This document shows positions 16,900 through 29,057 of a stretch of DNA of 64,000 nucleotides, in pieces. The notes below the pieces were generated by a model. The model was not told the origin of the DNA, ran no database searches, and saw only the letters and a list, made by a program, of their open reading frames with translations. The position numbers and the translations under genes are program-made. Source of the DNA: Collimonas arenae (lineage in GTDB: Bacteria; Pseudomonadota; Gammaproteobacteria; Burkholderiales; Burkholderiaceae_D); the NCBI RefSeq assembly GCF_001584165.1, contig NZ_CP013233.1, positions 62,001-126,000 on the forward strand. Direction: 5' to 3'. Within the stretch, counting starts at the first letter, position 1. Every line of letters starts with the position of its first letter.

Positions 16900-16907
16900 G
16901 CGGCGTT

Positions 16908-16924
16908 ACCGAGGCACCCTCGGT
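16908..16924 (+). terminator. Weak hairpin after the J-protein cluster
   Basis: A 7-bp stem ACCGAGG / CCTCGGT with a CAC loop lies 9 bases past the stop at 16899. No T tract follows, so it is at most a weak terminator. Confidence 0.3.
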
Positions 16925-17027
16925 CAGCGCACAGCAGCGCAAAACCAGCAGCCGCAAACTGCCAAATTGTTCCGGTGTTATATTTCAAGGCCTTGCTGTT
17001 CAAGCATAATTTGAAAGGAACATGATC

Positions 17028-17882
17028 ATGGCAACTATCGCTTTTCTCGGCACCGGCCTACTCGGCAGCGCATTCGCAGAAGCCGCCGCAAAACGCGGCG
17101 ATACAGTCACCGCATGGAACCGCTCCATCGACAAGGTACAAGCCCTCGCCCAGTTCGGCGTCAAGGCGGCAGCAACGCCGGCCGACGCGGTGCGCGGCGC
17201 ATCAAGAGTGCACATCGTGTTGAAAGACGACGCCATCGTCGAAGAAGTCATCTCGGCAGCGCGCAGCGGACTGTCGCCTGACGCCATCCTGATCGACCAC
17301 ACTACAACGCTGCCGACACTGACCGCCGAACGCGCCAAACGCCTGCACGCCGCCGGCATCAAGTATCTGCACTGCCCCGTTTTCATGGGCCCGGCAGCCG
17401 CGCGCAACGCCCAAGGCTCGATGATGGCCGCCGGCCCGAAAGCGCTGTTCGAATCAGTCCAGGCAGACCTCGCAAAAATGACTTCGCGCCTCGAATACCT
17501 GGGTGAGCGCAGTGACCTGGCCGCCGCCAACAAACTGTTCGGCAACGCCATGATCATCGGCCTCTCCGCCGTCATGGCCGACGTCCTCACCCTGGCGCAG
17601 GCAAGCGACGTCAACGGCGAAGACGCGATCAAACTGCTGAGCTTGCTTGACCTGAATTCGATGGTCGCGGTGCGCGGCGTGAACATGGCAAAAGGCAATT
17701 TCACCCCAAGCTTCGAACTGGCAATGGCCCGCAAGGATGTCCGCCTGATGCTGGAAACGACAGGCGACCGGCCAATGGCGGCGTTACCTGCGGTTGCCGC
17801 CAGAATGGATCAGCTGATTGCGGCGGGACATGGAGCTGAGGATGCTAGTGTTGTTGGGATTGATGCGGTGTCGCGCGGGTAA
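17028..17882 (+). CDS. NAD(P)-dependent beta-hydroxyacid dehydrogenase family oxidoreductase
   Basis: 284 residues. The Rossmann start IAFLGTGLLGSAFAEAAAKR (about 4-23), the cofactor region VTAWNRSIDKV, the substrate-site segment KYLHCPVFMGPAAARNAQGS (about 115-135) and the catalytic-Lys helix AAANKLFGNAMIIGLSAVMA near 170 (Lys in NKLFGN) match the 6-phosphogluconate dehydrogenase / 3-hydroxyisobutyrate dehydrogenase superfamily. AAAGGA lies 8 bases before ATG 17028, so that start is preferred over the ATG at 17022. The exact hydroxy acid or imine substrate is unknown. Confidence 0.88.
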   Translation: MATIAFLGTGLLGSAFAEAAAKRGDTVTAWNRSIDKVQALAQFGVKAAATPADAVRGASRVHIVLKDDAIVEEVISAARSGLSPDAILIDHTTTLPTLTAERAKRLHAAGIKYLHCPVFMGPAAARNAQGSMMAAGPKALFESVQADLAKMTSRLEYLGERSDLAAANKLFGNAMIIGLSAVMADVLTLAQASDVNGEDAIKLLSLLDLNSMVAVRGVNMAKGNFTPSFELAMARKDVRLMLETTGDRPMAALPAVAARMDQLIAAGHGAEDASVVGIDAVSRG

Positions 17883-18001
17883 TCGTTTGGACTCATGGGG
17901 CAGGGTTTGATCTGATGAGACATGGCGGCAGCGCGAGGGTTGCGATTTGACTCAAGTCTGCCGCTTGTGCGATCCACGTTACGGCATGAGGACTGATGAA
18001 C

Positions 18002-18025
18002 GGCTGTTTGCGACCCAAAGCAGCC
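18002..18025. repeat. Family B palindrome
   Basis: Imperfect 24-bp palindrome with GGCTG … CAGCC ends and GACC near its centre, at the left margin of the island; related to the other family B copies. Confidence 0.5.
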
Positions 18026-18048
18026 TGTGACGATTCCGAAAAGCAGAC

Positions 18049-18108
18049 TTTCAACACCTGAGCTAAGTGGGGCTGCGAAGCGGCTTCGGCTTGAACAAAT
18101 TGTTAGAT
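18049..18108 (-). repeat. attC-type integron recombination site
   Basis: Read on the minus strand, the 60 bases start with ATCTAAC (fits RYYYAAC), whose TAA is the stop codon of the GNAT gene, continue with AATTTGTTCAAGCCGAAGCC and GCTTCG at the hairpin centre, and end near GTTGAAA (GTTRRRY with the last base off). Order, length and wording follow the 60-bp attC of aadA-type cassettes closely, with a few changes in the right arm. Stop codon inside the R'' site is normal for cassettes. Confidence 0.78.
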
Positions 18109-18581
18109 TGCGGCGTGCGCGCGAATGTCACTACGCATGCGAAGAGTCACCGAGGACGTCTTTGCGTCGGATAAATGTTCTTCCTCGGCGACTGGAACGT
18201 ACCCGGCCCGATGGTAGAACTCAACGGCGTTGAAGGAAGCCTCAAGAGTGAGCGCTTTGATGCCACTCACAGCCGCCATAGCTTCAAGTGCGCGCAGGAT
18301 TTTCAGACCAACCCCTTGCCGGGAATGGGATGGACTGACATAAACAGCCTCGATGAACGCAGTCTCTGGGTTCAACTGGCCGAATGCGATGATACTTTCA
18401 TTTATTTCTTCGACGAGCACTGTTTGTAGTTCAATCGCCGGGTGATATGTCTCGGCGGTTCGAGAGGAACACCAGCCTTCTATTTCTTTCGCCGGATAAT
18501 GCGCAGCGGCTTGCCCCCGAATTGCGGCTATGCGGGTTTGCAGTATTTCCGATGCATCAGGGATTTGGCTAGTCGGAGCAT
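18103..18581 (-). pseudogene. GNAT family N-acetyltransferase, cassette gene, apparent frameshift
   Basis: The C-terminal part is clear: IAFGQLNPETAFIEAVYVSP, then SRQGVGLKILRALEAM (acetyl-CoA loop, RQGVGL) and NAVEFYHRAGY. The same frame runs upstream (DASEILQTRIAAIRGQAAAH, YPAKEIEGW) but has no start codon. ATG at 18581 in another frame reads MLRLAK and joins PDASEIL if one A is added in the AAA at 18564-18566; the result is about 159 residues, normal for the family, starting 10 bases after an attC-type core (GTTAGAC). The enzyme would acetylate a small amine; substrate unknown. The stop codon lies within the attC-type site. Confidence 0.75.
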
Positions 18582-18590
18582 TCTTCTGCG

Positions 18591-18739
18591 GTCTAACGCG
18601 ATTAAAGGTTAATTTGAAAATTAATCAGTGCTAAGAACAATATCATGAATGCCCGTTATTGCCGATAGCGGACGCACTTGGCGCTTTTATAATCAAGTGC
18701 AGCCACATAAATACTCGCTCAAACTAAGTGTTGTTTAGT
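18591..18739 (-). repeat. Candidate second attC-type spacer
   Basis: On the minus strand the spacer between the membrane protein gene and the GNAT gene ends in GTTAGAC, a perfect GTTRRRY core. Its other end, near the stop codon at 18735, holds only a degenerate partner (plus strand GTTTAGT). Inside are GCACTTG … CAAGTGC arms and a family B palindrome (18651-18673). The length of about 149 bases is at the upper limit for attC. Confidence 0.45.
18651..18673. repeat. Family B palindrome
   Basis: CCGTTATTGCCGATAGCGG core, an imperfect palindrome inside the spacer downstream of the membrane protein gene. Confidence 0.6.
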
Positions 18740-19184
18740 TCATGCGTTCGCGTCGCTGGAAATATAGCGCCCCGCCGTAGATACAAAGTAACGGGTAGAC
18801 AAACCAAAAAACTTTGCGCCAAACTTCATTGATATTTGGGAGATGAGACAAAAGTAAAATGACAACAGACAGGCCAATGTGAAACAGTGGAGCGCGCCAA
18901 GATGCTGGCGGAGACCATCTGGCTGCGACAAAGCCGGTTAAAAAATAAGCAAGAGCGCCGGGAATTTGGTAAATAAACCATTCGTTGGAATTCACATCCA
19001 ACGGGCCTGACGACCCGTAGGGGGCATTGTGTATGGCTGGCCAAATAACAAATATATTCACCAATATACAAACAGGAATGCCAATGACCTTCGCGACAAC
19101 ACCTGCAATAATTCCGCGCAATGTACTCCGCTTCCGATGCGACGTTGATATAGATGGAGAACTATCAGTATTTTTAGGAAACAT
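18735..19184 (-). CDS. Hypothetical membrane protein (cassette-like gene)
   Basis: 149 residues. A basic N-terminus (STSHRKRSTLRG) is followed by four hydrophobic segments: VIGIPVCILVNIFVIWPAI, FIYQIPGALAYFLTGFVAA, PLFHIGLSVVILLLSHL and VFWFVYPLLCIYGGALYF, so an inner membrane protein with both ends inside is likely. It ends in RRERMN. Lower GC than the chromosomal genes. Family unknown. No ribosome binding site stands out before ATG 19184. Confidence 0.6.
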   Translation of the reverse strand: MFPKNTDSSPSISTSHRKRSTLRGIIAGVVAKVIGIPVCILVNIFVIWPAIHNAPYGSSGPLDVNSNEWFIYQIPGALAYFLTGFVAARWSPPASWRAPLFHIGLSVVILLLSHLPNINEVWRKVFWFVYPLLCIYGGALYFQRRERMN

Positions 19185-19199
19185 ATATTTAAGAAGTTT

Positions 19200-19322
19200 T
19201 TATTCAATATCGATGAATCGAAGGGCAATATATCCCGATTTTACTTCATGGACCGCACCTCTTTGGAACGGACGATTGCCTTGAATGTAGTCAACATTTT
19301 GACCTGGTATGGATGGAAGCAT
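19200..19322 (-). pseudogene. Short reading frame next to the IS, possibly cut by it
   Basis: On the minus strand, 40 codons from ATG 19322 (MLPSIPGQNVDYIQGNRPFQ …) end at TAA 19200-19202. The frame is open back to the IS edge at 19349 and beyond, so the gene may have lost its 5' part to the IS insertion. The ending HEVKSGYIALRFIDIE looks like real protein, but no family is recognised. Confidence 0.3.
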
Positions 19323-19349
19323 GACGCTGGTGAAAGTCTGCTTCTGGCC

Positions 19350-21039
19350 GAGGCCGTGTAAAAACGCTGAATCCATCAAGGGAGCCGAGATCCACGTCAT
19401 TTTAACGCGACATTGTTGATAATAGAGAGCCCTGCAAACGCGGCGGCTATTTCCCTTGGCCTAGTAAATAGCCGTCTCCAAACATATCTCCTGACGCTAA
19501 AAGCGCCTATGCGCTCATCACCTTCATCAAGGTTCCCACGCCCAGCACGTTGATCATCCGCTTCATGTTGTAAGCCAGGACATGCAAGCTCATCTCGGTG
19601 CTCACTCGGGCCTTGGTTTTGGTGAGGAAGTGCGTAGCACCCATCCATGCCTTGATGGTGCCGAATGGATGCTCAACCGTTTGCCGGCGTATTCGCATCG
19701 CCTTCGGCGTTCGTTCCAACCGCTCCTGCATGGCCTCCAGTACAGACTCATGCTCCCATCGTGTCACGCGCCGTTGAGGACTTGGCGTGCATGCGGATTT
19801 GAGTGAGCACTGCTGGCAATTCGAGCTCCAATAGCGGTGCAAATTCAAGCCTTTCTCTTTGCTCGTGAAACGCCAGATCAATCGCTCTCCGGCGGGACAC
19901 TGATATTCATTGGCGCGTGCGTCGTAAATGAAATCCGCTTTGCCAAACCGACCTTCAGCAGAGGCATTGGAGGTCAGGTTCTTCGGGACGATCACGTTGA
20001 TGCCGGCTTGTGTGCACGCCAGGATCTCTTCTCCTTTGAAGTAACCACGATCAGCAACTACGGTCAGCGATGCGGTGCCAATCGCTTCTTGCGCTTGCCG
20101 GCTCATCGAGTGCAGTTGATCCCGGTCGCTCCCGATGTTGGTCACCTCGTGCGCCACAATCAGATGATGCTTTGCGTCGACCACCGTTTGTACGTTGTAG
20201 CCAACGACGCCTGTACCACGCGTCTTCATCGACCGTGCATCAGGATCGGTTTGAGAGACTTGTTGATCCGGCGTCTTCTGGAGTTTTAATTGGATGTCTT
20301 CAAGCTCTCGCATCTGCGCCTTGAGCGCTGCGATATTCTCATGCAGTCGAGTTGTCGTGAGTTGCTTGCGGTCCGGCTCTTGGCGATCCGCCGTGTCGAG
20401 GGCTGTCAGATAGCGATCAATGCTCGCTGCGATCTCTTCCATGCGCCGTTGCAGCTTGGCGCTGGTGAAGTTGCGGTCGCGGTTGTTGACGGCTTTGAAT
20501 TTGCTGCCGTCAATAGCGACCAGCGCTTCAGAGAACAGGCCAAGTCGCTGACACAGCACGACGAACTGCTTGCATACATTGGAGATGGCACGGCCATTGT
20601 CTTTGCGGAAGTTGGCGATAGTCTTGAAGTCCGGCGTCAAATGCCCTGTCAGCCACATCAGTTCAACGTTACGCTGCGCCTCTCGTTCCAGGCGACGGCT
20701 TGATTGGAGCCGATTGAGATAGCCGTAGATGTAAATCTTGAGAAGAACCGATGGGTGATAGGCCGGACGTCCTGTTTGTGCAGGCATTGTTCCTTCGAAA
20801 CCCATTTGCACCAGGTCCAGTTCATCGACGAAAACATCGACTACCCGCACTGGGTTGCTATCGGCAACGTAGTCGTCCAGTTGCTCGGGAAGCAAAATGC
20901 GTTGACTGCGATCCAGCCCTTCAATGAAGCGTTTCATAGGTGTACCTCGAACAGAGTCATCTGTTCGTGTGACATGGATCGCCGCAAATCGTTTACTTCC
21001 GATTAGAATTAGCGCTCAACAGCGTTTTTACACAGCCTC
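19350..21039 (-). mobile_element. IS1182-family insertion sequence, copy 1
   Basis: 1,690 bp with terminal inverted repeats (GAGGC C/T GTGTAAAAACGCTG at both ends). GGCC flanks it on both sides (19346-19349 and 21040-21043), consistent with a 4-bp palindromic target duplication. One intact transposase gene on the minus strand. It interrupts a family B palindrome, whose halves read GTCTGCTTCT and GATACCAGACGC when joined across GGCC. Confidence 0.9.
19507..20937 (-). CDS. IS1182 family transposase, copy 1
   Basis: 476 residues. MKRFIEGLDRSQRILLPEQL at the start is typical of the IS1182 family. The DDE catalytic residues are seen in LVAIDGSKFKAVNNRDRN (first Asp), TVVADRGYFKGEE (second Asp) and RRQTVEHPFGTIKAWMG (Glu). 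A Cys group (CPAGE, SSNCQQCSLKSAC) near 355-395 suits the insertion domain of this family. The protein sequence equals that of copy 2, so the gene is intact and the copying recent. Confidence 0.96.
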   Translation of the reverse strand: MKRFIEGLDRSQRILLPEQLDDYVADSNPVRVVDVFVDELDLVQMGFEGTMPAQTGRPAYHPSVLLKIYIYGYLNRLQSSRRLEREAQRNVELMWLTGHLTPDFKTIANFRKDNGRAISNVCKQFVVLCQRLGLFSEALVAIDGSKFKAVNNRDRNFTSAKLQRRMEEIAASIDRYLTALDTADRQEPDRKQLTTTRLHENIAALKAQMRELEDIQLKLQKTPDQQVSQTDPDARSMKTRGTGVVGYNVQTVVDAKHHLIVAHEVTNIGSDRDQLHSMSRQAQEAIGTASLTVVADRGYFKGEEILACTQAGINVIVPKNLTSNASAEGRFGKADFIYDARANEYQCPAGERLIWRFTSKEKGLNLHRYWSSNCQQCSLKSACTPSPQRRVTRWEHESVLEAMQERLERTPKAMRIRRQTVEHPFGTIKAWMGATHFLTKTKARVSTEMSLHVLAYNMKRMINVLGVGTLMKVMSA

Positions 21040-21078
21040 GGCCGATACCAGACGCAGGTGAATGGATAGTCGATTCGG

Positions 21079-21447
21079 TTACCGGAGTGCAACAAAGGCA
21101 GCATGCATAGCCAGTTCGTAAGCCTCTTCGTTGAATCCTGGGTTTCCCATTTTGAAAGCAATTAGTTCTTCTTCGAATGTCCGCTTGGCCCGAGGATACT
21201 TAAATAACGCTAGGCCTACTGCTGTCGCGTCTTTCCACATTCGCTTCACCAAAGCCAAGGCGTGCTCATAAGCAGGCTGGCTCAATGCAGGCAGAACTTC
21301 CGACAAGTCAAGCGCCGGGGGACGCTCCGATGGTGGTCCCCATTTACGCGTCCATTCGTTGTAGTAGAAGAGCAGGAACACCGCGTCTAATAACTGGGCG
21401 GCACGTATTTTGCGGATGTAGTCCGCCCGTTGCTCAGTCCTGTCCAT
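21079..21447 (-). CDS. Hypothetical protein (cassette-like gene)
   Basis: 122 residues, soluble, mainly helical by look (IRKIRAAQLLDAVFLLFYYN, YEHALALVKRMWKDATAVGL, FNEEAYELAMHAAFVALR). A good GGAGG-type site stands before the ATG at 21447. The stop codon is 36 bases from the edge of the IS target. Family not recognised. Confidence 0.6.
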   Translation of the reverse strand: MDRTEQRADYIRKIRAAQLLDAVFLLFYYNEWTRKWGPPSERPPALDLSEVLPALSQPAYEHALALVKRMWKDATAVGLALFKYPRAKRTFEEELIAFKMGNPGFNEEAYELAMHAAFVALR

Positions 21448-21486
21448 CCCCCTCCCGATTATTGTTTGAAGCGGATAACCCAGAGT

Positions 21487-21774
21487 CTAGACTCTCGGTG
21501 GTCGATTGAGCATCAATGCCCAAGCTGCACTGGCCCACATAATGATGCCTGTGCCTAGGCAGCCAATTGCGTCAAATGCAACGACAGGTACAAGCTGCGG
21601 GTATACGACGGCGAACAATATCAACGCGCTCCCAGTAAAGTAACGAGGGCGGGTTGAGAGGATATGCGTAAGCGGAAAACAGAACAGACCAATGACGAAA
21701 ATGGCGGATGGGAAGACCCAGGTAGCAAGGTTAATCCTTGGCAAGAGTATATAAATTACAGCTATCAAGCCCAT
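21487..21774 (-). CDS. Small hypothetical membrane protein
   Basis: 95 residues from ATG 21774. Three hydrophobic segments: LIAVIYILLPRINLATWVF, AIFVIGLFCFPLTHIL and YFTGSALILFAVVYPQLVPV, then a fourth weak one near the end (CLGTGIIMWASAAWALML). Its start overlaps the end of the membrane protein gene upstream (ATGGGCTTGA), so both are made from one transcript and perhaps work together. Family unknown. Confidence 0.5.
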   Translation of the reverse strand: MGLIAVIYILLPRINLATWVFPSAIFVIGLFCFPLTHILSTRPRYFTGSALILFAVVYPQLVPVVAFDAIGCLGTGIIMWASAAWALMLNRPPRV

Positions 21775-22055
21775 TGAGTTGTATTTACGATGGTAAAGAC
21801 ACGCTTTGTCCGTTGCCCCTGAGGGGAGTTGGCGTCTATTTTTAGAGCGCCTTGATATTTCCGGTATTGCAAAAGAGCGAGGACAGTTAATGCGAGTGTG
21901 CCTATTATTGTGAGCACCAGCCCAGTGAAATGTATTCCGTTGGCAAGATTCAAACACCAAAGGCCAAGCCCCATGCCGCCTAAAACGGCGAATCTTCCTG
22001 CCTCAGAAGCTTGATTTGCACGAAGTACATCTATGCTTGTGGGGGCTGGAATCAT
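21765..22055 (-). CDS. Small hypothetical membrane protein
   Basis: 96 residues from ATG 22055, preceded by GAAGGGAG at 10 bases; the longer open frame to 22181 lacks such a site. Two membrane segments: FAVLGGMGLGLWCLNLANGI and FTGLVLTIIGTLALTVLALL, then a basic tail. Coupled to the gene at 21774. Family unknown; such two-gene membrane pairs occur among mobile cassettes. Confidence 0.5.
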   Translation of the reverse strand: MIPAPTSIDVLRANQASEAGRFAVLGGMGLGLWCLNLANGIHFTGLVLTIIGTLALTVLALLQYRKYQGALKIDANSPQGQRTKRVFTIVNTTQWA

Positions 22056-22268
22056 ATTCGTAACACTCCCTTCAATTAGATTTCTTAAGTGATTTACATG
22101 CTTGGCTGGAACGAGCGCTTCTGGCCCAAGCAGTATAAAAACGTAAGCCTTAGAAATAATATATATGTAACTGATAAACAACTGTGAAATGAGGCAGCTT
22201 AAGCCGATGCCATGATGGCAGAAACAAAATTTCCTTACGACAACATGTTCGTTTTTGTTATCGATTTG

Positions 22269-22316
22269 ACGGCGGGCATAACCGGCCGGTTTTGGCCGAC
22301 TACGGTCGTCCGCCGT
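22269..22316. repeat. Family B palindrome with long outer stem
   Basis: Outer arms ACGGCGG (22269-22275) and CCGCCGT (22310-22316) enclose CCGGCCGG and TTTTGGCCGACTACGG. It lies between the stop of the 22325 gene and the next genes. Confidence 0.65.
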
Positions 22317-22324
22317 GGGTAGCT

Positions 22325-22912
22325 TCAGAAGGGATTGTTCTCGCCCTGGGCGCCATTTTCAAACATATTGAATGCGCCCCTAAAAGCCCATATTTCGGGA
22401 GGCGTAGGATGTCGAGGCCCGCCACGTGGGACTTTGCTTGTCTGTTTCTTGACCCATTGTCTGAGCATTTTCCAGAATTTTTCAGTTTGCATCGTCGCCC
22501 CGATACCAATTACACGGTAATGATTGCCAATCCATTCAAAGGATGACAGCCCTATGGTGCGCATTTCAGAGAGCTTATCCGTTTGCATATTGCGAATATT
22601 CAGCCAAATTACACCGGGGTGGGCACCAAAATAAGGTAGCGAAGTATCTGCTCCCGATTTAACTTCTACCCAACCGTCGAACGGATTGCTAATTTCTCCT
22701 GACGTTTCCTTAGCACCTCGAAAAAGAGGAAGAGAGCCACTGGGGATGTGCCAAAGGCAATAACGGCCTGGCTCTAAAACCTCAATGCGTTTTACTGCTA
22801 CCCATCGTCCTGCGCCAGCCGAGACTATGAACGCAATTTCCTCATTTTCATTGAGATAAGAAAGCACCTCTAGCTGGTCGGATTCGTTGCAATAAATTGG
22901 CAACCAAGGCAT
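22325..22912 (-). CDS. Hypothetical protein (cassette-like gene)
   Basis: 195 residues, soluble. The first half reads IYCNESDQLEVLSYLNENEE, then RWVAVKRIEVLEPGRYCLWH and IPSGSLPLFRG; the second half has VKSGADTSLPYFGAHPGVIW and IGLSSFEWIGNHY. Trp- and Tyr-rich, no catalytic motif seen. I have the impression of a conserved cassette-borne family but cannot name it. The region upstream of its start carries the nine-fold hexamer repeat, so its expression could vary with repeat number. Confidence 0.6.
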   Translation of the reverse strand: MPWLPIYCNESDQLEVLSYLNENEEIAFIVSAGAGRWVAVKRIEVLEPGRYCLWHIPSGSLPLFRGAKETSGEISNPFDGWVEVKSGADTSLPYFGAHPGVIWLNIRNMQTDKLSEMRTIGLSSFEWIGNHYRVIGIGATMQTEKFWKMLRQWVKKQTSKVPRGGPRHPTPPEIWAFRGAFNMFENGAQGENNPF

Positions 22913-22925
22913 GTATTAACTTCCT

Positions 22926-23048
22926 ATTCAAATGGCAATGTCTCGAGATTAAACTGCTTCTGCTTCTGCTTCTGCTTCTGCTTCTGCTTCTGCTTCTGCT
23001 TCTGCTTCCGCTTCTGGCCGCATTGCGACCTTCATTTGCCATTCGAAT
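22926..23048. repeat. Hairpin spacer with nine TGCTTC hexamers
   Basis: Inverted arms ATTCAAATGGCAATG (22926-22940) and CATTTGCCATTCGAAT (23033-23048) match apart from one mismatch and one extra base. Between them are nine perfect TGCTTC units (22955-23008), then a degenerate unit and CTTCTGGCCGCATTGCGACC, which is a family B palindrome half-and-half. The hexamers look like an expansion of the left arm of that palindrome. Confidence 0.8.
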
Positions 23049-23054
23049 TGCGCT

Positions 23055-23455
23055 TTATGGACTTGTTAGTGTTTCCGTCATGTCACGCCATGCAATCGAC
23101 GCAGGAAATTCACGGCCATTAAAAAACGCCAGAAACGCATCTACCACCATCGGAGCCGTAAACCATTCATCCGCCAATAATTTTATTTCGCCACCCCCAA
23201 AGGCCAAGATTGTGCCATCGGGATAAGCCTTGCTCGGGTATCGTGATATCCGCGGTAATGTCGATTCTTGAAGATGTCACGATGTTCCAACATGCATGTA
23301 ACGCCACCGCCGGCAACTTGCAAATAGTTCCCATGGACGTCAGTTAGCGATGCATATGATGAAGGGCCGTAACTACGCAGTACCAAAATCGCCGAACGAA
23401 CCTGTGCCTCGTTGGCATTTTCAACTGGACGCTTTTTCTCAACCTCTAGCCGCAT
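23055..23455 (-). pseudogene. Hypothetical protein, possible immunity-type, apparent frameshift
   Basis: From ATG 23455 (GGGAGG upstream) the frame reads MRLEVEKKRPVENANEAQVR, then LRSYGPSSYASLTDVHGNYL and KNRHYRGYHDT. At the CCC of 23236-23238 one missing base shifts the frame; repaired, it continues SKAYPDGTILAFGGGEIKLL, DEWFTAPMVVDAFLAFFNG and ends at TAA 23055-23057. About 133 residues. Small acidic/aromatic proteins of this build are common as immunity proteins of polymorphic toxins, but this is an impression, not a family match. Confidence 0.5.
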
Positions 23456-23807
23456 TATTTACTGACCTCCCGAATACCCCATCACCTACCTGCGGCAACA
23501 TTAAATTTCCAAAATAGTATCAGATTGCTCAAACGCTCGACCGTCTGGAATTGGCCGTTTTGTGTCGGCCGACTCATAATAAGTTGTCCACTTTCATACG
23601 CATCTTTGAAGCCCCGGCATGAATTCCTCGCAGATGAGTCCTCCACATATATTTTCTGCTAGCTTGGGCGTATTGCCGTTAATTTCCAGGGAGGTTCAGC
23701 GGGACACATCATTGTGCGATGAAATTTCAAGCGAATTGGATATTAATTTTGGCGCTTCTGCGGCTATAACGAAACACCACCGCTGAATCACCGGTTAGCC
23801 TATTCCG
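23456..23807. other. Spacer with a family B palindrome and a doubtful small ORF
   Basis: 352 bases. CCGTCTGGAATTGGCCGTTT and TGTCGGCCGACTCAT (23541-23574) form a family B palindrome. A plus-strand frame of 55 codons (23619-23786, MNSSQMSPPHIFSASLGVLP …) is open but has no ribosome binding site and runs against all neighbours. GTTAGCC at 23794-23800, by the stop of the DUF2199 gene, is one base from the GTTRRRY attC core. Confidence 0.4.
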
Positions 23808-24317
23808 CTACTTCCCCACTGGATGCATCATTACAGAATAAAGTTCAGCAACCCGCTCCACCGTTACTCCGTTCCGCTGCTCCATTGCAAGTGGGTGGCC
23901 AGTTGGCTCAAGCTCAATATACGGACGGATACCATCGTCTCGTAAATGAACCATCGTTTTGAGATTCATTGTGTCTGGATAGGGCTTCAGCCACGCGTTA
24001 AGCCAGCCAAAGAATGGCCCAACTTGCGAGCGCTTATCCTGCTCAAAATATTTGAGCCATTCAATAAAATTGGCGTCACTAAGTGATACCCATACGCCCC
24101 AACTGAATGGTTCTGCTTCTCCTATGACTGGGATTTCAATGCATCCGCGAACGAAGAAATGCTGTTTATCTATAACGCAATCGTCGCTCCCCAAATCGCA
24201 CCGGGTCGCACGCTCGCCTTCAGGAATTTCGTAGTAACTAAGTGGGGCATGGGCGCCAAAGCTCGGCATACCTTCGTGAATCTCGCCGCATGAATTGCAT
24301 TTGAATTTAAATGACAT
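23808..24317 (-). CDS. DUF2199 domain protein (cassette-like gene)
   Basis: 169 residues from ATG 24317; an in-frame ATG at 24362 would add 15 residues. The signature is strong: FKCNSCGEIHEGMPSFG at the start, with the CxxC pair; LGSDDCVIDKQHFFVRGCIE near 45; WGVWVSLSDANFIEW near 80. The DUF2199 family has unknown function and is listed among domains found at toxin-immunity loci, which fits this island. The two N-terminal cysteines may bind zinc together with the later Cys/His residues. Confidence 0.82.
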   Translation of the reverse strand: MSFKFKCNSCGEIHEGMPSFGAHAPLSYYEIPEGERATRCDLGSDDCVIDKQHFFVRGCIEIPVIGEAEPFSWGVWVSLSDANFIEWLKYFEQDKRSQVGPFFGWLNAWLKPYPDTMNLKTMVHLRDDGIRPYIELEPTGHPLAMEQRNGVTVERVAELYSVMMHPVGK

Positions 24318-24410
24318 ATTGAACGACGAGGCGGGCGAGTTTGCGATTATGAATCCTGCCATGGAAAATTTGGCAAAGCAACATTAATTCGAGCTCGCAC
24401 TTGAAGGACG

Positions 24411-24426
24411 GCTATTGGCCAATAGC
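24411..24426. repeat. Perfect 16-bp palindrome (family B)
   Basis: GCTATTGGCCAATAGC is a perfect palindrome flanked by GGAC and GGGC, located upstream of the DUF2199 gene. It is the most symmetrical family B copy and shows the GGCC core that the IS copies used as target elsewhere. Confidence 0.8.
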
Positions 24427-24566
24427 GGGCGCTAGTTTAAGGTAACCTGTGAGCGAACTCCATAACGAGACGCCGATTGTGATATGTAGTCCGCAGCAGT
24501 CACCCTGCATTCCTCATCAGTAGTCTATTAATGATCCCTGGAAGATCAGTGAATCCATCCCAGGAT

Positions 24567-24971
24567 TCAAGGCTTTTTAACAAATTCGACACGATAATCG
24601 GGGACTGTCGATAACAATTTTCCGCCCCTCGTTGACAGGGTAAACATTCCTACCACTACATCATTTTTTATGTCCTCGTAGTTTTTTTGATCGATAGTTT
24701 CACCACGCAATGCGTTAGTCAGGCCCTTTCGAATGGATGGTTCGACAATAAAACAAGCTGTCGCTACTAAACTTTCGACTAGTTGCCCGTTGACCAGGAG
24801 GCTACGTTTTTCCCTGAGCTCAGTTGCACTAAACTCGAACTCGAGATTCGGACTTTTGTAGACGAAAAAAAACTCATCCGCAATGTCGTAAAACTTGGTT
24901 GAGCCCCTAATTCTTATATTTTTTTCTGTATCGACAGCACTAATCGTCTTCTGGTCATATTGAAACGCCAT
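24567..24971 (-). CDS. Hypothetical protein (cassette-like gene)
   Basis: 134 residues with AAGGAG 8 bases before ATG 24971. Soluble, charged, no membrane segment: KTISAVDTEKNIRIRGSTKF, ADEFFFVYKSPNLEFEFSAT, KNYEDIKNDVVVGMFTLSTR. Family not recognised. It is the first gene of the minus-strand series left of the second IS, so the original cassette-reading start or an integrase could have been just to the right. Confidence 0.6.
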   Translation of the reverse strand: MAFQYDQKTISAVDTEKNIRIRGSTKFYDIADEFFFVYKSPNLEFEFSATELREKRSLLVNGQLVESLVATACFIVEPSIRKGLTNALRGETIDQKNYEDIKNDVVVGMFTLSTRGGKLLSTVPDYRVEFVKKP

Positions 24972-25082
24972 TCTGTGCTCCTTAGGCTATGCGATTTTCT
25001 TGATATTGGCGATGGTCAGTCATATGACGATGATGTCCAGATGTCCGCTTTGGGCTGAATTCGTCAATGACTGCTACTGGCC

Positions 25083-26772
25083 GAGGCTGTGTAAAAACGC
25101 TGTCGAGCGCTAATTCTAATCGGAAGTAAACGATTTGCGGCGATCCATGTCACACGAACAGATGACTCTGTTCGAGGTACACCTATGAAACGCTTCATTG
25201 AAGGGCTGGATCGCAGTCAACGCATTTTGCTTCCCGAGCAACTGGACGACTACGTTGCCGATAGCAACCCAGTGCGGGTAGTCGATGTTTTCGTCGATGA
25301 ACTGGACCTGGTGCAAATGGGTTTCGAAGGAACAATGCCTGCACAAACAGGACGTCCGGCCTATCACCCATCGGTTCTTCTCAAGATTTACATCTACGGC
25401 TATCTCAATCGGCTCCAATCAAGCCGTCGCCTGGAACGAGAGGCGCAGCGTAACGTTGAACTGATGTGGCTGACAGGGCATTTGACGCCGGACTTCAAGA
25501 CTATCGCCAACTTCCGCAAAGACAATGGCCGTGCCATCTCCAATGTATGCAAGCAGTTCGTCGTGCTGTGTCAGCGACTTGGCCTGTTCTCTGAAGCGCT
25601 GGTCGCTATTGACGGCAGCAAATTCAAAGCCGTCAACAACCGCGACCGCAACTTCACCAGCGCCAAGCTGCAACGGCGCATGGAAGAGATCGCAGCGAGC
25701 ATTGATCGCTATCTGACAGCCCTCGACACGGCGGATCGCCAAGAGCCGGACCGCAAGCAACTCACGACAACTCGACTGCATGAGAATATCGCAGCGCTCA
25801 AGGCGCAGATGCGAGAGCTTGAAGACATCCAATTAAAACTCCAGAAGACGCCGGATCAACAAGTCTCCCAAACCGATCCTGATGCACGGTCGATGAAGAC
25901 GCGTGGTACAGGCGTCGTTGGCTACAACGTACAAACGGTGGTCGACGCAAAGCATCATCTGATTGTGGCGCACGAGGTGACCAACATCGGGAGCGACCGG
26001 GATCAACTGCACTCGATGAGCCGGCAAGCGCAAGAAGCGATTGGCACCGCATCGCTGACCGTAGTTGCTGATCGTGGTTACTTCAAAGGAGAAGAGATCC
26101 TGGCGTGCACACAAGCCGGCATCAACGTGATCGTCCCGAAGAACCTGACCTCCAATGCCTCTGCTGAAGGTCGGTTTGGCAAAGCGGATTTCATTTACGA
26201 CGCACGCGCCAATGAATATCAGTGTCCCGCCGGAGAGCGATTGATCTGGCGTTTCACGAGCAAAGAGAAAGGCTTGAATTTGCACCGCTATTGGAGCTCG
26301 AATTGCCAGCAGTGCTCACTCAAATCCGCATGCACGCCAAGTCCTCAACGGCGCGTGACACGATGGGAGCATGAGTCTGTACTGGAGGCCATGCAGGAGC
26401 GGTTGGAACGAACGCCGAAGGCGATGCGAATACGCCGGCAAACGGTTGAGCATCCATTCGGCACCATCAAGGCATGGATGGGTGCTACGCACTTCCTCAC
26501 CAAAACCAAGGCCCGAGTGAGCACCGAGATGAGCTTGCATGTCCTGGCTTACAACATGAAGCGGATGATCAACGTGCTGGGCGTGGGAACCTTGATGAAG
26601 GTGATGAGCGCATAGGCGCTTTTAGCGTCAGGAGATATGTTTGGAGACGGCTATTTACTCGGCCAAGGGAAATAGCCGCCGCGTTTGCAGGGCTCTCTAT
26701 TATCAACAATGTCGCGTTAAAATGACGTGGATCTCGGCTCCCTTGATGGATTCAGCGTTTTTACACGGCCTC
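25083..26772 (+). mobile_element. IS1182-family insertion sequence, copy 2
   Basis: 1,690 bp, same ends as copy 1, flanked by GGCC on both sides (25079-25082, 26773-26776). Comparing by eye with copy 1 I found three base differences: one in each outer region and one synonymous change in the gene. The joined target reads GACTGCTACT-GGCC-GGTTACGGTC, again a family B palindrome. Confidence 0.9.
25185..26615 (+). CDS. IS1182 family transposase, copy 2
   Basis: 476 residues, same protein as the copy at 19507-20937, with the DDE residues in AIDGSKF, VADRGYF and TVEHPFG. Transcribed on the plus strand, that is, opposite to copy 1, so the two copies form a large inverted repeat around 21044-25078 that could invert or fold. 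An intact start with GAGGT 9 bases upstream. Confidence 0.96.
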   Translation: MKRFIEGLDRSQRILLPEQLDDYVADSNPVRVVDVFVDELDLVQMGFEGTMPAQTGRPAYHPSVLLKIYIYGYLNRLQSSRRLEREAQRNVELMWLTGHLTPDFKTIANFRKDNGRAISNVCKQFVVLCQRLGLFSEALVAIDGSKFKAVNNRDRNFTSAKLQRRMEEIAASIDRYLTALDTADRQEPDRKQLTTTRLHENIAALKAQMRELEDIQLKLQKTPDQQVSQTDPDARSMKTRGTGVVGYNVQTVVDAKHHLIVAHEVTNIGSDRDQLHSMSRQAQEAIGTASLTVVADRGYFKGEEILACTQAGINVIVPKNLTSNASAEGRFGKADFIYDARANEYQCPAGERLIWRFTSKEKGLNLHRYWSSNCQQCSLKSACTPSPQRRVTRWEHESVLEAMQERLERTPKAMRIRRQTVEHPFGTIKAWMGATHFLTKTKARVSTEMSLHVLAYNMKRMINVLGVGTLMKVMSA

Positions 26773-26776
26773 GGCC

Positions 26777-27145
26777 GGTTACGGTCATTCATGTTGAATG
26801 ACTTTATCAGAAGTATTTAAGTTTTCTCGACTGAGCCAAGAAGCATATAACTAGCCGCGTTGATTTCCGATAGGTTGGCAGTAGGGGCGGAGCCATAAGG
26901 TTTTCTTTACTCTTGCCAAAACTAATCTCGCTTGCGCGTGCTCCTCCGAAAGAGGATATTTCAGTCTTTGCATGACTCAGGGCTGACTCCATTGCGTCTA
27001 TAAATACCGCCATTGAGAACATCAATGGTGACGGGACTGGTTCCGATTTGCTGGAAATGAACGCTTTGCTGAACGTCCAATATCTAACTGAAAAGTTACG
27101 ACACCTTATCAATATTAATTCATAGAATAGTTCGGAGAACCCATA
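26777..27145. other. Spacer between IS copy 2 and the cupin gene
   Basis: 369 bases, AT-rich. A 71-codon minus-strand frame (27022 down to 26807, MFSMAVFIDAMESALSHAKT …) is open but has no known family. The region ends with a plausible promoter stretch and CGGAGAA before the GTG of the cupin gene. Confidence 0.35.
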
Positions 27146-27547
27146 GTGAAAGCGTATCTTTCTATTTCCATCCTTCTGGCGGGCATTCTGTCGGCGCATT
27201 TTGCAATGGCTGCGGATATGGCCCCGGCAGCAAAGGCGACACAAGTCTTGCAAAGAATCCGCGTGCAGGGAACCGAGCGCGAAATGGGCATGGGGATTGC
27301 TGAGTTCGCTCCGAACGCCGAAAAACCTCGCCACAAGGCGATAGGGCCCGAGATCGTGTATGTGCTTGAAGGGGAAATAACGGTTCTGGTAGATGGTGCG
27401 CCTGCAAAAGTTGTGCATGCGGGCGGGAGTTACCAGCTTGCAGCGAAAGATGTGCATGTCACTAAAGCAGGACCGGCAGGCGCGAAAACCATTGCATCTT
27501 GGGTGACCGTACCAGGCAAGCAATTTAACGTATTTGTGCCAAGATAA
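27146..27547 (+). CDS. Secreted cupin-domain protein
   Basis: 133 residues, GTG start with GGAGAA upstream. Signal peptide YLSISILLAGILSAHFAMAA, cut after AMA. The mature part is a single cupin barrel: PRHKAIGPEIVYVLEGEITV (first cupin motif; His and Glu likely metal ligands) and HAGGSYQLAAKDVHVTKAGP (second motif). Small periplasmic cupins may bind metal and a small ligand; function unknown. It is the only non-transposase gene of the island on the plus strand. Confidence 0.8.
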   Translation: MKAYLSISILLAGILSAHFAMAADMAPAAKATQVLQRIRVQGTEREMGMGIAEFAPNAEKPRHKAIGPEIVYVLEGEITVLVDGAPAKVVHAGGSYQLAAKDVHVTKAGPAGAKTIASWVTVPGKQFNVFVPR

Positions 27548-27590
27548 TCAGGGAGAAGCAGCCGCTTGCGATAGGCTGATTTCACCTAAC

Positions 27591-27622
27591 TGCGGCCGGT
27601 CGCGATCCTGATAGTGGTCGTT
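27591..27622. repeat. Family B-like palindrome at the right margin
   Basis: TGCGGCCGGTCGCGATCCTG and AGTGGTCGTTC follow directly after ACCTAAC (27584-27590, fits RYYYAAC). This last copy marks the right border of the repeat-bearing region. Confidence 0.4.
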
Positions 27623-27699
27623 CGACTTCGCCAATGATGCACTGCCAATCTCGTGCTTTGCGAGGCAAAACAGCTATCGCATCATATCTTTCAGCTGCA

Positions 27700-28068
27700 C
27701 TAGACTTCATCGTTGCAACCGCTTTCGACCTTGTTCAAGGCATCTGACAATGCAACGCGCAATATGGATAGCGAATGCGCTTTTTTCTCCACTTCACACA
27801 TTTTTTCTTGAATCAGAAGACGTTTTTTGCTCGGGGCCAGCCAGTCCTGCTCCCAGGCGACGATTACGTCCGCGATCTCTTTTAAAGTAAATCCGAGCGC
27901 CTTGGCGTGTGTAATAAGCGCAATGCGGCGCAACGCCAGCGGCGAATATTCCTTATAGTTGTTGCTTAAATGAGGCTGGGCCGCCTCGTCGAGCAAGCCC
28001 ATACGTTCATAAAATCGGACAGTATCGCGCGATACGCCGGCCCGAGATGCAATTTCACCAATCCGCAT
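27700..28068 (-). CDS. MerR family transcriptional regulator
   Basis: 122 residues from ATG 28068 with AAGGGAA before it; the longer open frame upstream is not used by the family. MRIGEIASRAGVSRDTVRFY is the MerR helix-turn-helix and first wing, followed by YKEYSPLALRRIALITHAKA and LGFTLKEIADVI, then a C-terminal coiled coil (KKRLLIQEKMCEVEKKAHSL) for dimer formation. A few cysteines (MCEVEK, SGCNDEV) at the end could sense metal or redox state. It faces the SDR gene, whose promoter has the MerR-type spacing described separately. Confidence 0.9.
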   Translation of the reverse strand: MRIGEIASRAGVSRDTVRFYERMGLLDEAAQPHLSNNYKEYSPLALRRIALITHAKALGFTLKEIADVIVAWEQDWLAPSKKRLLIQEKMCEVEKKAHSLSILRVALSDALNKVESGCNDEV

Positions 28069-28114
28069 TGCCCAGTTCCCTTCCAATCGAGATGCAAGCA
28101 GTCGAAAATAATGA

Positions 28115-28146
28115 TTGACCATGGACCGTAGTCCACGCTTTACATT
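28115..28146 (+). promoter_or_regulatory. MerR-type promoter and operator of the SDR gene
   Basis: TTGACC (28115-28120) and TACATT (28141-28146) are separated by 20 bases (19 if TTACAT is used), longer than the usual 17. In the spacer lies the dyad TGGAC-CGTA-GTCCA (28122-28135). This over-long spacer with a central dyad is the hallmark of promoters that MerR proteins untwist and activate. Confidence 0.75.
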
Positions 28147-28174
28147 CGACATTCCCATAACGAATCATTTCACC

Positions 28175-28978
28175 ATGCGACCACTCAACTATCGCAACAC
28201 CGCCGTCATGATAACAGGCGCCTCATCCGGAATTGGCCTGGCATTTGCCCATGCGCTTGCCGCACGCGGTGCGGACCTGATTCTTGTCGCACGCTCAGGT
28301 GACAAGCTAAACAGCCTGGCGCGGGAGCTGGTGCATTGTCACGGCATCCTGGCTCGCGCTCTGGTAGCCGATCTGACCGAATCCGGTGCTGCCAGCGATG
28401 TCCATGCAAGGGCAAGTGCGCTTGGTTTGACGCCGAACATTGTCATCAACAATGCCGGCTTTGCGACTCACGGTCATTTCGATACGTTGTCGCTAGAACG
28501 GCAACTCGATGAGATATCGCTCAATTGCAGAGCCGTTGTCGAACTCACTCATGCAGCATTGCCAGCCATGTTGAATCAAGGAGAGGGATCGATCATTAAC
28601 GTAGCGTCAACCGCCGCTTTGCAGCCACTGCCCTATATGGCCATCTATGGCGCCACCAAGGCTTTCGTGCTCTCTTTTTCAGAAGCTTTGTGGCAAGAAT
28701 ATCGTGCTCGTGGCGTGCGCGTGCTTGCGGTGTGCCCAGGTGCCACCGATACCGCTTTCTTTGATGTCGTGGGCGCCGCCGAGGCCGGGGTTGGCACGCG
28801 CATGGCCACAGACACTGTCGTCAATGCGAGCTTGCAGGCACTCGATCGCGGTCAAAGCCATGTCGTCCCCGGAGGCGCAAATCGGATGCTTGGGTTGTTA
28901 CCGCGGATACTCCCAAGGCAAACAATATTGCAAATCGTCGCGAACATGCTCCGGCCTCGTCATCAGGGCTCGATGTGA
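28175..28978 (+). CDS. Short-chain dehydrogenase/reductase
   Basis: 267 residues. Classical SDR: TGASSGIGLAFAHALAARGA (cofactor motif TGxxxGIG, about 12-31), NNAGFATHG near 90 (NNAG), catalytic Ser in INVASTAALQPL near 140, and YxxxK in MAIYGATKAFV near 155. The C-terminal RILPRQTILQIVANML suggests a membrane-associated end as in SDR of lipid metabolism. ATG 28175 is preferred to the frame start 28115, which would run through the promoter. Under control of the divergent MerR gene (inference). Confidence 0.88.
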   Translation: MRPLNYRNTAVMITGASSGIGLAFAHALAARGADLILVARSGDKLNSLARELVHCHGILARALVADLTESGAASDVHARASALGLTPNIVINNAGFATHGHFDTLSLERQLDEISLNCRAVVELTHAALPAMLNQGEGSIINVASTAALQPLPYMAIYGATKAFVLSFSEALWQEYRARGVRVLAVCPGATDTAFFDVVGAAEAGVGTRMATDTVVNASLQALDRGQSHVVPGGANRMLGLLPRILPRQTILQIVANMLRPRHQGSM

Positions 28979-29057
28979 TTCTTCGAAGTCCCCCATGTTT
29001 GCATGACATTCCGGCATGAATGATCTACCTCCGATAGACATAAACTGCCGGGCTCGA

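Follow-up and report, generated by a model that had tools for sequence, protein, structure and literature searches.

The window, a stretch of 64 kb that comprises positions 62001-126000 of the closed, single-contig genome of Collimonas arenae (4,723,987 bases; 4.72 Mb), harbors at about 18 kb the remnant of a GNAT acetyltransferase gene, which is preceded by a cassette core and followed by an attC-type site (Table 1). Beside it lie small open reading frames on the minus strand (18.7-25 kb), and of the seven other small frames tested on this strand, six belong to no Pfam family. Among them is a DUF2199 gene (23808-24362), and a CTGCTT tandem repeat of 10.5 copies occupies 22954-23016. This region is interrupted by two insertion sequences, assigned to the IS1182 family with 466 bits (cut-off 270), and a third copy, 99.9% identical, was found elsewhere in the genome (L098 11542-13242). 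By eye, the ends of the IS1182-family copies abut GTCTGCTTCTGGCC-like palindromes. Elements of about 150 bp with IS-like ends were observed at L097 12751-12897 and 13258-13411 as well as at L102 8962-9105; these are possibly miniature derivatives of the window's insertion sequence. A MerR gene and a short-chain dehydrogenase gene (the latter assigned by eye) at 27569-29016 recur at 90% as a discrete block in two of the 14 other genomes of the genus (L153, L154), and in genome G175 this block adjoins an attC site with the right flank T.

Table 1. Features at and around the cassette locus, in window coordinates.
Feature	Coordinates	Strand	Basis or remark
Right flank T, starting at R'	17995..18055	-	Recurrence after other attC sites
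Degenerate aadA/aadB-type attC	18049..18108	-	Plasmid BLAST; sole model match in window; no fold
attC R' GTTGAAA	18055-18049	-	Sequence
attC R'' ATCTAAC	18108-18102	-	Sequence
GNAT acetyltransferase gene remnant	18103..18581	-	ATG 18581-18579, early frameshift; GNAT frame open to stop in R''
5' cassette core GTTAGAC	18591..18597	-	Sequence
Left flank U	18598..18664	-	24 nt by the core resemble LysE left flank; 27-nt motif 18638-18664 common to G061
Small ORF, 149 aa	18735..19184	-	Without Pfam family; no attC detected behind
IS1182-family insertion sequence	19331..21051	-	Transposase 19507-20937
IS1182-family second copy, inverted	25071..26791	+	99% complementary to the first

The preliminary description had placed an attC of the aadA type directly behind the GNAT gene, and such a stretch is indeed present. 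Read on the minus strand, it keeps the order of an attC from its first core to its last, and the stop codon of the gene sits inside R'', as had been described. R'' conforms to the consensus RYYYAAC, and R' departs from GTTRRRY in its last base (consensus as quoted in an excerpt of PMC12901181). When 18030-18620 was compared with plasmids by distant BLAST (7.3 billion bases), 1,974 records matched; among the 25 rows listed, the matches were confined to the attC stretch, showed homology to attC sites of the aadB/aadA type and reached a best E value of 1e-9, with the longer ones spanning 66-69 nt at 80.6-83.6% identity.

We built an attC covariance model, R1, on a training set of 19 sites, of which 18 lie in family genomes on the attI side of an integrase and one comes from a plasmid; aadA1 and aadB were excluded. 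Its structure comprises 19 pairs, which hold in 93.6% of the cells, and sites outside the training set scored 49.5 (aadA1), 37.4 (aadB) and 40.7 and 39.8 bits (plasmid LC623925). Over the whole window (E<=10) R1 gave a single match, exactly at the attC stretch, with a low score of 16.1 bits (E 0.2). An unfiltered search of 16900-28300 (11.4 kb) returned the same site with an E value of 0.036, followed by a runner-up of 7.6 bits. In the whole-window alignment seven of the 19 pairs are nonstandard, and in the unfiltered alignment part of the stem is deleted instead. Homology, low model score and lost pairs together thus mark the site as real by descent but degraded, and its resemblance to attC exceeds chance, chiefly through sequence homology. 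Other searches were negative: an Rfam scan of 16-29 kb gave nothing at E<=1, a palindrome pattern count found no excess at 18-27 kb, and the motif GTCYGCTNYYGGC was not enriched genome-wide (13 matches, 14 for the reversed control), its matches being clustered at two places of the genome. Likewise, GTTRRANGTCYGCT was not enriched: 15 genomes gave 18 matches to it and 36 to the control, of which a single genome contributed 15. Across the genus, R1 matched in 8 of 15 genomes, which is an undercount, since only 150 candidates per genome were scored and the window's own site was missed.

The strand that an integrase would use, here the plus strand of the window, does not fold as an attC. Its folding energy of -5 kcal/mol corresponds to z +0.52, 138 of 200 shuffled sequences fold as well, and paired cores and L boxes with extrahelical bases are not formed. 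The comparison sites gave z values of -4.08 (aadA1), -3.17 (aadB), -2.27 (LC623925), -2.65 (pTha01) and -4.67 (G002), and two further sites, G061:C15 and a second attC of the same genome, gave -0.96 and -0.15. The test is not simply diagnostic, as good attC sites can fold poorly too: site G061:C24 reaches 46.6 bits and nevertheless only z -0.85. Of the two supports to which the preliminary description had pointed, the model match exists with a weak score, and the stem pairing largely fails. Homology carries the case for an attC.

No integron integrase was detected over the cut-off, either in the window, as had been noted before, or in the rest of the genome, where the best match to the integrase profile reached 83.8 bits (curated cut-off 265). 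The 15 genomes of the genus, this one included, gave none over the cut-off with a profile that could miss a badly broken pseudogene, and 36 of 294 family genomes gave one. Without an intI gene there is also no attI beside it.

Turning to the gene, the preliminary description had let it begin 10 bases after a GTTAGAC core. The core lies 9 bases before an ATG, but this ATG and the GNAT domain are in different frames, so that a GTG at 18420 is the earliest common start codon in frame with GNAT. The covariance model detected no attC upstream of the core. Pfam GNAT families score over their cut-off for 18106-18420, and the GNAT frame itself contains no internal stop. The layout is that of a cassette: a core of the form GTTRRRY and an attC enclose a single gene, whose stop lies at R''; the intact frame of a cassette gene is missing. 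Intact copies exist. An intact relative of 159 residues (P0009), encoded on a 4.71-Mb contig, agrees with the window's frame, and relative to it and to the homologue of Collimonas sp. OK607 (L033) the window copy shows a shift of frame shortly behind its start, which could be an assembly error. Similarity to the OK607 gene sets in 12 nt outside the core and breaks off 26 nt before R''. At the place of the core OK607 has GTTAGGC, and cassettes carrying a LysE gene, discussed below, have GTTAGGG; R1 found no attC in the 10-kb locus of OK607. P0009 scored far below the NCBIfam cut-offs (ArsN2 27.6 vs 125; two AAC(6') models about 21-22 vs at least 270), thus no resistance function is indicated for this member of the family. 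Of the 38 GNAT homologues that a protein search yielded, 24 have a longest contig below 5 kb. At E<=1e-20, 4 of 399 genomes of the order had a match, namely this genome and three at 34-39% identity, and the 74 plasmid records with relatives all stayed below 60% identity.

The junction between cassette and chromosome lies at G|TT, and from this cross-over onward the right flank T reads GTTGAAAGTCTGCTTTTCGGAATCGTCACAGGCTGCTTTGGGTCG. With T as query (392 family genomes, E<=0.001), nine places in eight genomes were found, the window among them. At five of the eight other places an R1 attC ends at T: in G061:C24 (the 46.6-bit site), G175 (34.5 bits) and G130 (28.4 bits), all three with a single LysE-type cassette in common (assigned to LysE with Pfam), in G002 of another genus (45.9 bits) and at the second, degenerate attC of the own genome (C1:3834257-3834317; 14.9 bits). 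No R1 attC was found at the T places of G071, G208 and G133. Furthermore, G061:C15 combines an attC of 21.1 bits with a shortened T, G153 has a T-like sequence beside which R1 detected no attC, and the Thauera plasmid pTha01 carries two cassettes with distinct attC types (28.6 and 20.9 bits), and behind each of them lies a T-like sequence.

When seven T sequences from Burkholderiaceae were compared in pairs, they scored 18-61 (shuffled sequences: 99% at 19, maximum 26), and against the window T the two pTha01 sequences scored 28 and 24; such values are biased upward, because likeness to the window or its attC had served to collect the sequences. The attC sites beside matches found with T only are the independent part of this evidence. 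A flank from a class 1 plasmid scored 20 against the window T and 62 against the second T of pTha01. In plasmids, the window T matched six records at E 6, the attC and T of G002 matched none, and the first T of pTha01 matched itself only. The tail behind the glyoxalase-family cassette of G061:C25 was rejected as a T (scores 10-19, shuffled maximum 26); its copy in G197 aligns with it as an almost identical sequence.

The left flank U, which by eye looks attI-like, recurs in part as well. Its 24 nt before the GNAT core share 15 identical positions with the nucleotides that precede the LysE core in G130 (3 of 5,000 shuffles) and 11 with the flank of the OK607 gene (257 of 5,000 shuffles). The 27-nt motif within U has a counterpart of 92.6% identity in the LysE flank of G061, at a different distance from the core. 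The left flank of G061:C15 was dismissed as a U, as only 4 of 24 positions are identical. On pTha01, the left flanks of both cassettes align with each other over about 180 columns (score 82, maximum of 500 shuffles 25).

In G061:C24, G130 and G175:C28 (L101, L102, L153) the LysE cassette, its attC and both flanks form a common unit of 854-898 bp at 89-94%, and the rest of the three 20-kb stretches is dissimilar by BLAST, save a short second piece of left flank in both comparisons with G061. Besides, two genomes have a 520-bp unit in common at 93%, in 20-kb contexts that are otherwise dissimilar; it consists of a glyoxalase-family gene and its attC (45.7 and 50.8 bits; L100 10296-10796, L103 11186-11705). 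The gene flanking the GNAT cassette (17022-17882) has matches in 12 other genomes of the genus; in the 11 of these that were compared, the similarity at the locus stops with the gene, and no empty site was found.

In our view, the best reading of the locus is a dead single cassette, a GNAT cassette that was inserted by an integrase, decayed later and persists as a fossil without integrase, with a probability of roughly 0.85. Descent from a cassette, as the preliminary description had proposed, is supported by the attC homology, the stop inside R'', the 5' core and the OK607 homologue, which is bounded near core and R''. The reading as a decayed fossil, and not a working cassette, is backed by the attC homology (E 1e-9), the single exact model match, the stop in R'', the absence of an IntI over the cut-off in the genome and the genus, the missing fold, the frameshift and the occurrence of T after other attC types. 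Against this reading stand the model score, which alone is weak, the one-base departure of R' and the OK607 homologue without attC. We infer insertion by an integrase and the following order of events: an integron integrase that the lineage no longer has would have inserted a circular GNAT cassette, equipped with an attC of the aadA/aadB type, into the chromosome. At one end of this site the core GTTAGAC would have met the left flank, and at the other the final G of the attC would have been linked to the TT with which the right flank continues. Afterwards the attC stem would have mutated until the fold was lost, and the gene would have gained its frameshift (in this assembly). What is left today would be a single-attC fossil without integrase, among small ORFs that two IS1182-family copies interrupt.

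How the flanks came to recur is less certain. One might tentatively speculate that betaproteobacterial genomes contain a dispersed platform without integrase, whose halves U and T meet at G|TT and which carries one cassette each, with varied attC types and at unrelated loci, and from which the array end of class 1 integrons might derive. Likewise doubtful is the notion that 18-27 kb is an ordinary decayed cassette array (CALIN), in which U and T would be no special integration site but spacers of one ancestral array, alike by descent. The small minus-strand ORFs, mostly without Pfam families, and the tandem pair of flanked cassettes on pTha01 fit such an array. However, only one attC was detected in the window, T lies behind attC sites of several types, at loci that are unrelated and also outside the genus, and by eye no T follows any of the 44 attC candidates printed for integrase-side DNA of family genomes, some of which overlap or are doubtful (six further loci with matches stand outside this count). 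As a separate observation, each of the two tandem cassettes on pTha01 (L164, record 75195-77450) is bordered by a left flank of its own, similar between the two, and on the right by a T-like sequence, which is unlike a plain array behind one attI.

It seems unlikely that attC, gene and flanks were moved here as a block by an IS- or tni-related transposable unit instead of by an integrase. The LysE unit occurs in three unrelated chromosomal contexts, with ends outside the cross-over, which fits a transposable unit or a dispersed platform, and a TniB/TniQ/TniQ module adjoins the second attC and T of this genome. Yet T begins exactly at the integrase cross-over after unrelated attC types, and neither terminal inverted repeats nor target duplications were shown for the unit. 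The module itself, with TniB and two TniQ genes (G000:C1:3829167-3834317; L097 7167-12317), has as its first gene one of 654 residues with no Pfam match and a weak IS481 match; its layout beside the attC is reminiscent of Tn402-type integrons, a resemblance that gives a lead at most. That the cassette is still mobile, with an integrase supplied from elsewhere, is very improbable: the GNAT homologues on short contigs and their rarity in the sampled genomes of the order are what a travelling cassette predicts, but the site does not fold, its pairing is lost (7 of 19 model pairs), the gene is frameshifted and no integrase exceeded the cut-off, so the "true mobile cassette" of the preliminary description is not supported. 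Chance resemblance to attC, for which the model E value of 0.2 in 64 kb might speak, is hardly credible given BLAST E values down to 1e-9 in 7.3 billion bases, its fitting position and orientation behind a stop codon and a second related site in the genome.

Compared with known systems, the fossil cassette shares with the aadB/aadA cassettes of class 1 integrons the attC sequence class, the stop at R'' and the GTTRRRY core before the gene. It differs from them by its chromosomal location, a GNAT gene in place of an aminoglycoside gene, the decayed attC and the lack of integrase and attI. As in a CALIN, attC occurs without an integrase in the genome; by the default of IntegronFinder 2.0, however, a CALIN comprises at least two attC sites (excerpt of PMC9024848), whereas the window gives one match in 64 kb, with a weak score and a lost fold. 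DNA right after the attC resembles T also at the array ends of class 1 plasmids (L061, L062) and on pTha01. The direct likeness between class 1 flank and window T is weak, and an annotated resolvase or recombinase comes next in L061 and L062, with none at the window. In attG sites, reportedly described by Loot et al. 2024, cassettes are said to be inserted into genomes outside integrons. In the window, too, a cassette adjoins chromosomal DNA at G|TT without being part of an integron, but its right flank belongs to a conserved sequence family common to several loci and genera, and the use of this site by an integrase is putative. Background was drawn from excerpts of PMC9024848, PMC5460862, PMC10500605 and PMC12901181; no paper among the literature matches listed deals with dispersed integrase-less platforms or with Collimonas cassettes of this kind.

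Taken together, the window contains a fossil cassette of a known sort in an unusual setting. Homology of an attC can outlast both its fold and the integrase, and structure scores alone therefore miss fossil cassettes. If the dispersed platform were true, its flanks would be natural, testable places at which integron cassettes insert outside integrons, and would offer a lead on the chromosomal surroundings in which class 1 integrons originated.
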